64,000 nucleotides of DNA from Candidatus Saccharimonadota bacterium (GTDB taxonomy: Bacteria; Patescibacteriota; Saccharimonadia; Saccharimonadales; Saccharimonadaceae), in contig JAFRBI010000009.1 in assembly GCA_017404935.1 (NCBI GenBank), forward strand, positions 62,001-126,000. Reading direction: 5' to 3'. How positions within the stretch are numbered: the stretch's first letter is position 1; each line of letters starts with the position of its first letter. The translations under genes and the position numbers were made by a program. This document shows positions 3,416 through 5,676 of this stretch, one piece after another. The notes under the pieces were generated by a model. The model worked only from the letters and a program-made list of their open reading frames with translations. It did no database searches and had not been told where the DNA came from.

Positions 3416-5650
3416 CTACCATGAGACTTCCCATGGATCAGTAGCGGTACCGGAGCCGGAGGAGATATTAGTCCCCTGGGCCAGAGAAATGGCCGGGCGC
3501 ACCCCGAGCGAGTAGTTCACGTAGAGGTAGCTGTTGAGATAACCACTCGAATACAGGTGGAACACGTCCGCGTAGCCGGTCGAGACCCGGAAGTCCGGGG
3601 AGAGCAACCAGAAGCTCGAGCCGGAACGAAGGAAGGAGTTGGCGTGGTAAGTGGAACCATTAGCAGCCGCGCTAGTGCCAGAACCAGCAAATGATGCTTC
3701 ATCTGCAGTAATTAGGGCGATTGGGTTGGTAAGTTTTTTATTGCCATTGGAGGCAGAAGATGTAGTGTAGAGATCTACAGTACTACGTGGGCAACCTAGT
3801 GATGGGGTTTGGTAAGTGGAACGGTTTCTCATATGTGAGCCAAAGTAGAATATGGTAGCACTATCGCCTGATGTATATGGTGTAGTGATGCTAGTGGTGT
3901 CGCTATAGGTGGTCCAGGAAGAGCCACTATTCACGGAGCGGTCTCCACAGAAGCCAGCGCTAGTTTCTAGGTGGCTACCATAGGTACTACTGAGATTAGA
4001 AGTGTACCAAGTGTCTATCTTGCCTTTGATGGTGGAGTTGGTAGTGTTGCCGGAGAAAGCAGAGTCTTTACCAAAGAGAGTACCAGCTTGAGTAGAGGTG
4101 GTGGTGGATTTGTAGCTAGCATTGTACATATAGCCTACGCCTACGATACTCTTGCCATCGCTATTCGCAGTGGTGTCAAAGGCGGAGGTGGATGAGAATT
4201 GGGCTTTACTAGTAGCGTTAGCACAAGTAGAGCCAGTCCAGAGGCCATTGTAGATGAGCTTTGCACCGCCAGAGCCAGTAGTTCTAAGGATGCGCCAGCA
4301 GGTGCTGGTAGTGCTGTTACCACCTAGTCTGACATAGTTTGGATAAGTCACGGCTGAGCCGTTTGAGCCATAAGAGCCTACGGAGTTTTCTAGGACACCA
4401 CGGTAATAATATATCTTGTAGTCGTTTGATGCGTCTGTGGCGGCGCCAAAGGTGGTAGCGTCGTATTCATACACGCCAGAGTTGGAAGTGTCCGTGGTGT
4501 AGTTATCAGTGGTTGGGATAGTGATTTCTGCCTGGAGGTCTGCAGCGGTTTGGGTGCCTTTGCTCATGGCGGCGACAGCGTCGTAGAGCGAAGAGCCATC
4601 TTGCTCCCACATCGCATAAAGGTTAGCAGTAGTAGTGCCAGCAGCAAAGCTGGTGAAGGTGTAGGTATCACCTGGTTGGTAGGTGGCGCCTGGAGTGCCG
4701 GTGCAAGATTCGCCATCAGAGCTGAGTGTGCCATCACACCAGCCGAGGAAGTTATAACCAGATCTAGTAGGAGTGGTAGCATTTAGTTCAATTGAAGAAG
4801 CAGCGATATCACTTTCTGCATCTGGAGTAAGTAGTGGTGTAGTGCCGTCTGCGTCTAAGTAGTTTATTTGGTAGGATATGTTATTTGCCACAGCAGTAAG
4901 GACAAAGGTATTAGTATAAGTTCCTACTGGTTTAGTATAATCTACTCTTGCACCTACACCAAGTGTATAGCTATCTGCAGTAGTATTAGGAGAAGATGTG
5001 GTGTAGATAGTTTTAGCAGTAGTAGTAGATGTAGGAGCAGAAAAGAAATCTGTGGTAGTAGCACTATTTACAGTTAGTCTATAACCCCATTTGTTATTGT
5101 AAGTGGAAGCATTACCTGTTCTAAAGTCATTTTCTGTGGTATCTGCTGTAATAGTATCTAGGGTATCGCCAGTAGTGCTATTTATAAGTTGGCCAGAGGT
5201 GTCTGTTCCTAATATTTTAAGGCTATAACCGGTGAGATTATCTGTGGTGACAGTAAACTCTGCTTGGTCTGCTGCTGCACTAGTTGCAAAGGTACCAGAA
5301 GCAGAGGTTGGGGTGATATCTACTGATGCAGTGTCTTTTGATGATACGATAGATAGGGTGGTAGTGGCTGGGACGTAGGTGGCTTCGGCGTTATCAGAAG
5401 CCCTAGCAATTGGGAAAATAGTTGCAATAGTAAGTAAGCCGAAGGCAGTTATGCTAGTAAAGCCAATAATACGGACAAATCTATTATATTTAATATAGTT
5501 CTTACTAAAAGGTACTCCACTACGCCGGGGTCTAAAACCTGAGAGATGGTTATTTAAAAATAAATCAGGGTCATACAAAAGATTTACTTTTATAAGACCA
5601 CGGCGTAGGGCTAAAATAATTTTGCTGAGTTTTTGATTATGTATGACCAT
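3416..5650 (-). CDS. Large exported surface protein with InlB-type repeat and DUF6273-like C-terminal domain
   Basis: The ATG at 5650 is chosen because AAAGGAAC stands just before it; a longer start at 5674 would lie inside the leader pseudoknot. The 744-residue product has a basic N-terminus, a hydrophobic export segment near residues 45-65 ending in a plausible ARA cleavage site, and Thr/Ser-rich beta domains. Then come a Listeria-Bacteroides (InlB B) type repeat ending in NLYAMWE (about 260-340), and a C-terminal domain with SFWLLSPD...GVRPAISL (about 670-725) as in DUF6273-like proteins. No LPxTG motif or C-terminal anchor is visible. The last part changes sharply to C-ending codons (see 3485-3640). 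A structured leader RNA precedes it. Function is inferred to be surface display or adhesion. Confidence 0.8.
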   Translation of the reverse strand: MVIHNQKLSKIILALRRGLIKVNLLYDPDLFLNNHLSGFRPRRSGVPFSKNYIKYNRFVRIIGFTSITAFGLLTIATIFPIARASDNAEATYVPATTTLSIVSSKDTASVDITPTSASGTFATSAAADQAEFTVTTDNLTGYSLKILGTDTSGQLINSTTGDTLDTITADTTENDFRTGNASTYNNKWGYRLTVNSATTTDFFSAPTSTTTAKTIYTTSSPNTTADSYTLGVGARVDYTKPVGTYTNTFVLTAVANNISYQINYLDADGTTPLLTPDAESDIAASSIELNATTPTRSGYNFLGWCDGTLSSDGESCTGTPGATYQPGDTYTFTSFAAGTTTANLYAMWEQDGSSLYDAVAAMSKGTQTAADLQAEITIPTTDNYTTDTSNSGVYEYDATTFGAATDASNDYKIYYYRGVLENSVGSYGSNGSAVTYPNYVRLGGNSTTSTCWRILRTTGSGGAKLIYNGLWTGSTCANATSKAQFSSTSAFDTTANSDGKSIVGVGYMYNASYKSTTTSTQAGTLFGKDSAFSGNTTNSTIKGKIDTWYTSNLSSTYGSHLETSAGFCGDRSVNSGSSWTTYSDTTSITTPYTSGDSATIFYFGSHMRNRSTYQTPSLGCPRSTVDLYTTSSASNGNKKLTNPIALITADEASFAGSGTSAAANGSTYHANSFLRSGSSFWLLSPDFRVSTGYADVFHLYSSGYLNSYLYVNYSLGVRPAISLAQGTNISSGSGTATDPWEVSW
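3485..3640 (-). other. Candidate variable region (DGR-type) in surface protein
   Basis: About residues 670-722 of the surface protein. From SFWLLSP to GVRPAIS roughly half of the codons end in C (GAC, TTC, GTC, TAC, CAC, CTC, AAC, AGC), whereas the rest of the gene prefers T/A-ending codons. NNC codons are what adenine mutagenesis of AAC codons in a diversity-generating retroelement template yields, and DUF6273-like C-termini are a plausible variable-region scaffold. No template repeat or reverse transcriptase was found in the window, so this is inference. Confidence 0.5.
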
Positions 5651-5676
5651 ATTGTTCCTTTGTCTGTGGCCCAACT

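Follow-up and report, generated by a model that had tools for sequence, protein, structure and literature searches.

A probable relic of a lost diversity-generating retroelement at the C-terminus of a Saccharibacteria-type surface protein

Diversity-generating retroelements (DGRs) make errors opposite adenines during reverse transcription, a chemistry that is well established. Near the 3' end of a surface protein gene in a Saccharibacteria-type genome lies a patch of codons that resembles the variable region (VR) of such a system. The window, here the whole 64,000-nucleotide stretch that was analyzed (G000:C5:62001-126000), belongs to a genome assembly of 740,059 bases in 11 contigs that is 98.76% complete. 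The locus raises two questions: was the patch written by a DGR and, if so, where are the template repeat (TR) and reverse transcriptase (RT) that wrote it?

Architecture and codon usage of the target gene

From N- to C-terminus, the target protein consists of a hydrophobic stretch, a long Thr/Ser-rich extracellular stalk, and a DUF6273-like/C-type-lectin-like domain. The features of the gene in the window are as follows.

3416..5674, minus strand: target gene, 752 amino acids, from the open reading frame list and translation, counted from the TTG of the listed frame
5405..5470, minus strand: hydrophobic stretch IIGFTSITAFGLLTIATIFPIA near the N-terminus, read from the translation
3419..4396, minus strand: predicted C-type-lectin-like domain (DUF6273 type), C-terminal 326 amino acids, from an AlphaFold2 model and PDB matches
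3485..3631, minus strand: DGR variable region, 49 codons, 147 bp, LRSGSSFWLLSPDFRVSTGYADVFHLYSSGYLNSYLYVNYSLGVRPAIS, from codon alignment to relatives' TRs and third-position G/C content
3419..3484, minus strand: conserved 22-codon tail LAQGTNISSGSGTATDPWEVSW after the VR, beyond the TR match

The true start of the gene may be a later ATG than the listed TTG. To judge from the translation, the hydrophobic stretch is likely a signal or membrane anchor, and by analogy the likely role of the protein is surface adhesion to host cells or phages. The VR reads LRSGSSFWLLSP...GVRPAIS, and the stop codon follows 66 bp past its end. Because the gene lies approximately 65 kb inside the 133-kb contig C5, chimerism at a contig edge is unlikely.

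We modeled the last 326 residues with AlphaFold2 from an alignment of 47 homologues, which gave a mean pLDDT of 89.6 and a pTM of 0.90; an earlier model from 15 sequences was poor (pLDDT 44) and was discarded. The best PDB match is 9qa6, the Thomasclavelia ramosa IgA peptidase, residues 38-304 (Z 13.6, rmsd 3.0, 188 aligned). C-type lectins make up most of the lower-ranked matches, with Z of 4-5, values that are weak when taken alone, and the DGR protein Mtd (1yu1) matches with Z 4.2 and rmsd 4.4 over 127 aligned positions. The model points to a C-type-lectin-like fold for the scaffold, albeit with modest Z values, and agrees with the first-pass annotation of this DNA, which had proposed a VR scaffold at the extreme C-terminus. 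Similarly modest Z values accompany the C-type-lectin-like fold of DUF6273 DGR targets (PMC10743442), and in Faecalibacterium prophages the VRs lie at the C-terminus of DUF6273 (PMC11792537). The DUF6273 Pfam match of our target (E 0.0016, 18.8 bits) falls under the 23.5-bit cut-off, and the domain profile, when searched against PDB sequences, had no match.

The patch is set apart by the share of its codons that end in G or C (GC3). In the VR core (45 codons, SSFWLLSP...GVRPAIS) GC3 is 87%, compared with 40% in the rest of the 752-codon gene (Fisher 7e-10), where 45-codon stretches that end 20 codons or more upstream of the VR reach a maximum of 67%. Among 15,842 codon windows from 46 open reading frames of at least 150 amino acids, the median GC3 is 40% and the 99.9th percentile is 84%. 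Along the gene, GC3 is 0.46 over codons 150 to 41 upstream of the VR, 0.30 over codons 40 to 11, and 0.70 over the last ten; it is 0.84 over the 49 codons of the VR and 0.62 over the 16 that follow. The abrupt switch described in the first-pass annotation is present in GC3; the NNC codons to which it had been ascribed account for only part of it, as they alone make up 53% of the patch and as much as 56% of another stretch of the gene. Third-position G/C is the signal because fixed template codons (CGG, TCG, GCG, GTG, CTG) add to the NNC codons. Across 44 VRs, raised GC3 was confined to the VR (Wilcoxon 1.3e-8). With such a codon imprint alone, a stretch written by a DGR can be recognized from one genome, even when template and RT are lacking. 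Targets such as this one escape RT-first detection, and metagenome surveys that take the RT as their starting point state that remote targets are missed (PMC8144416).

Template repeats in sister species

In a first search, the C-terminus of the target was compared with 60 genomes of the genus, of which 15 held homologues. Several of these had a second short match beside the first, and most of the second matches are template repeats. Five same-genus genomes (G051, G011, G022, G156, and G104) carry a TR of asparagine codons that reads LRSGSNFWLLSPNNRNSNGNANVFNLNSNGNLNNNNVNNTNGVRPALS or nearly so and ends ...NRNSNGNANVFNLNSNGNLNNNNVNNTNGVRPALS; those of the first four contain 17-18 AAY codons per 48. 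The cassettes run in the order target, TR, a gene of ~150 amino acids, and RT, and the third of these we take to be Avd-like by its size, position, and recognition rather than by a profile match. The RTs of G011, G104, and G051 are ~64-65% identical to one another. In G022 the RT gene is interrupted (L050/L197, G022:C24) and in G156 it has nine stops (L161/L198, G156:C13), with the TR still present in both; decay of these two GVRPA-type DGRs is in progress.

The five cassettes, three of them in G011, G051, and G104 and the degraded two in G022 and G156, share their domain and VR boundaries with the window gene, and their template codons agree with the window VR at non-adenine positions. In contrast to the window gene, which has none of the three, their targets adjoin a TR, an Avd-like gene, and an RT. 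The relatives' TRs end at GVRPALS, and the tail LAQGTNISSGSGTATDPWEVSW beyond that point is kept in all relatives' targets. These templates place the VR at 3485-3631 on the minus strand, almost exactly where the patch had been put from the window alone (3485-3640).

Differences between the window VR and these templates fall mainly on adenines. Compared with the nearest TR, that of G051, the VR has mismatches at 21 of 38 adenines and 12 of 106 other positions (codon alignment; Fisher 1.9e-7); as the template comes from a sister species, the 12 non-adenine differences mix drift of the TR with drift of the VR. The other four TRs gave p values of 2.8e-8, 1.5e-5, 3.8e-9, and 8.4e-4, and across all five, mismatches amount to 55-66% at adenine sites and 11-28% elsewhere. 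The relatives' own cis VR-TR pairs, used as positive controls, showed changes at 26/38, 28/42, and 28/40 adenines with one non-adenine change each. Non-adenine divergence among the TRs of different species is 12-33%. At 11% from its nearest TR, the window VR is not above this range, so its imprint is not visibly decayed, and such a divergence is expected if the VR was written by a TR of its own that is no longer seen. It is also one codon longer than the relatives' TRs, within an NNNN run, which is consistent with a separate TR. Judged by these alignments, window positions 3485-3631 are the VR of a DGR target protein. The N-rich TRs of the five genomes and the adenine-specific differences bear out the earlier proposals that the region was written by a DGR and that its codons derive from AAC/AAT template codons.

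Two other candidate templates were rejected. A second VR-like copy in G005 (C10:2089; L047:2092-2235) has 3 AAY codons, as opposed to 17-18 in the TRs, and a 78-amino-acid open reading frame on C4 of G092 is a displaced VR-like tail instead. The G005 copy lies directly downstream of the target, at the spot expected for a TR, and is diversified rather than N-rich. Separately, perfect hairpins of 7-9 bp follow the VR at a distance of 96-146 bp in 4 of 5 cassette targets (loci L049, L048, L170, and L161) but only 4 of 40 other targets (Fisher 0.002); these could be a homing element, a template-RNA element, or a terminator. A scan of the 200 nt downstream of the window VR found no stem of at least 7 bp.

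Retroelements of the host genome

The genome has four RT matches, on contigs C3, C7, C8, and C9. None is on C5, the contig of the window, in agreement with the earlier statement that the window holds no RT. Three of the matches belong to intact-looking DGRs, whose own TR-VR pairs served as further positive controls.

G000:C3 (L011:6239-10702): changes at 18/58 adenines and 0/136 non-adenine positions
G000:C8 (L014:6880-10560): changes at 22/47 adenines and 0/147 non-adenine positions
G000:C9 (L013:6375-10399): changes at 25/55 adenines and 1/138 non-adenine positions

Each consists of an adjoining target, an accessory gene of ~300 amino acids with no Pfam match, an RT, and, downstream of it, a TR in inverted orientation. 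Because of this inverted arrangement, a same-strand scan of the genome for TR-VR pairs found nothing; the pairs were found by a scan for AAY codons and an opposite-strand comparison. The three TRs match another target fold, not the window VR, and the three RTs are just 28-30% identical to the GVRPA-type RT. Two of the targets were scanned against Pfam: that on C8 matches Fib_succ_major, and that on C3 has no match. The fourth RT (C7, L012:9097-10410; 437 amino acids) is Drt2-like, scoring 259.8 bits against a cut-off of 390, and sits inside an island of glycosyltransferase and sugar-nucleotide genes. On C10 (L200:6486-7796), a further protein of 437 amino acids ends in IRCVAS like the DGR targets and adjoins a MurA-like gene.

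No cognate TR was found in the assembly. The VR as DNA and as protein, and likewise the pattern of the conserved TR start, returned only the VR itself or chance matches, and neither a relative's TR as DNA nor the TR consensus as protein located one. An adenine-tolerant scan of the VR against all four RT neighborhoods, on both strands, did not find a TR, and no RT of the GVRPA type was found in the 740,059 bases. One short BLAST match near an RT (C3:49794-49811) was rejected as a TR since it is a chance match within that DGR's own target gene. The organism uses DGRs, but the writer of the window VR is not in the assembly. The reading of the patch as a remote target, served by a DGR at another place in the genome, is not borne out: protein, DNA, pattern, and RT-family searches gave no cognate TR or RT, and the three DGRs present use different templates. 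The first-pass annotation had also named the absence of a TR and RT from the genome, together with a lack of hypervariability among strains, as grounds against a DGR. The former holds for the cognate system, but the DGR origin stands because N-rich templates exist in sister species.

Origin and fate of the variable region

Across the genus, the domain or VR is present in 31 of 174 genomes (E<=0.01), and a cognate RT and TR cassette in five, two of them with broken RTs. Among the 21 high-quality genomes (completeness of 90% or more, contamination of 5% or less) in which the domain or VR occurs, G051 alone has the cassette. In a family sample of 394 genomes over 61 genera, matches were found solely in this genus, and viral contigs yielded no useful relative. 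GC3 is at least 0.70 in 20 of the 31 VRs whose genomes lack a TR and ranges down to 0.25-0.62 in the others. It correlates negatively with non-adenine divergence from the nearest TR (Spearman -0.69, p 1.5e-7, a value that is only a guide as the sequences are related). We read falling GC3 as an imprint that fades after DGR loss, with the window VR seemingly at the fresh end; G144, G116, and G157 likewise carry orphan VRs of the fresh kind, and G136 and G003 faded ones.

Based on these observations, we consider it probable (roughly 0.7) that the window VR is left over from a DGR whose cassette has been lost and that it is frozen rather than an active target. To judge from the relatives' templates, the VR was written from a template RNA with many AAC/AAU codons: reverse transcription made errors opposite its adenines, and the cDNA took the place of the last ~147 bp of the binding domain. 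The outcome was a randomized set of some 20 residues at the surface of a C-type-lectin scaffold that itself stayed fixed, and the G/C-ending codons of the template, foreign to the gene, remained in the target. The writing cassette (target, TR, Avd-like gene, and RT) would then have disappeared from the lineage, and the protein would now keep a single fixed variant of its binding surface.

What the window VR represents in a Saccharibacteria-type genus has a precedent in Treponema denticola, where isolates without RT and TR retain targets whose VRs differ mostly at adenines from the TRs of other strains; the authors read these as remnants of lost DGRs or as targets acquired alone (PMC4891356). 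Both have an adenine-pattern target in a genome without cognate TR or RT, but the T. denticola remnants belong to another phylum and to other target proteins, and the window genome also has three unrelated DGRs. Faecalibacterium prophage targets (PMC11792537) and tentaclins (PMC10743442) likewise carry their VR inside a C-type-lectin-like DUF6273 domain; these are phage receptor-binding or structural proteins, whereas the window protein is cellular. Remote variable proteins of cyanobacterial DGRs (PMC7517822) resemble the window gene in that a VR-bearing gene lies far from the DGR core, but there the matching TR is in the same genome.

Could the cassette instead lie in an assembly gap or have been binned out, the VR being a live remote target? 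The assembly is in 11 contigs, the cassettes of G011, G022, and G104 sit at contig ends inside the target gene, indicating that VR/TR repeats break assemblies, and remote targets are real, as G022 has further VRs on other contigs. However, an assembly that is 98.76% complete leaves little room for such a gap, and gaps alone would hardly explain why 20 of the 21 high-quality genomes that have the domain or VR lack the cassette. We therefore regard this explanation as unlikely and loss of the cassette as the most likely reason for its absence.

A smaller chance attaches to import of the C-terminal cassette, already diversified, by recombination or transfer into a lineage where no such DGR ever worked. 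The stalk is shared with two proteins, its closest matches: a G103 protein that bears a different C-terminal domain (76% DNA identity, query 284-1070) and the DGR target on C9 of the window genome (69%, 649-1077). Since stalks are common to proteins with different variable domains, C-terminal domain swapping has happened. GC3 is also raised in the flanks, over ten codons upstream and 16 codons downstream of the VR, to levels above those of most relatives. Nevertheless, the GC3 peak still matches the TR-defined VR, and the DNA outside the VR shows divergence from all relatives sampled. It is very improbable that no DGR was involved and that the patch reflects a usual preference for G/C-rich codons or the coding of a conserved domain: some relatives' domains show normal codon usage (GC3 0.25-0.56), but the mismatches to templates are adenine-specific and the GC3 boundaries at the VR are sharp.

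Cassette loss in this lineage may be one instance of a wider pattern, which we put forward tentatively and hold to be rather unlikely: the GVRPA-type DGR would come and go in the genus, write surface proteins, and then be lost or decay, leaving VR imprints graded from fresh to faded. If so, frozen randomized binding domains would supply new adhesins over the long term, or mobile cassettes would rewrite them once more in trans. With 31 genomes that have the domain or VR and five cassettes, two of them broken, the genus is a natural series in which DGR loss and the later fate of randomized domains can be followed. We also looked in this genome for an empty former cassette site near the PfkB-type gene; none was found, a result that is uninformative because cassettes occupy different places in different species. 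At the UvrD-side site, G103 carries a large target (G103:C6, L150:5433-9020), and the window genome has only a ribosomal L27-like gene there.
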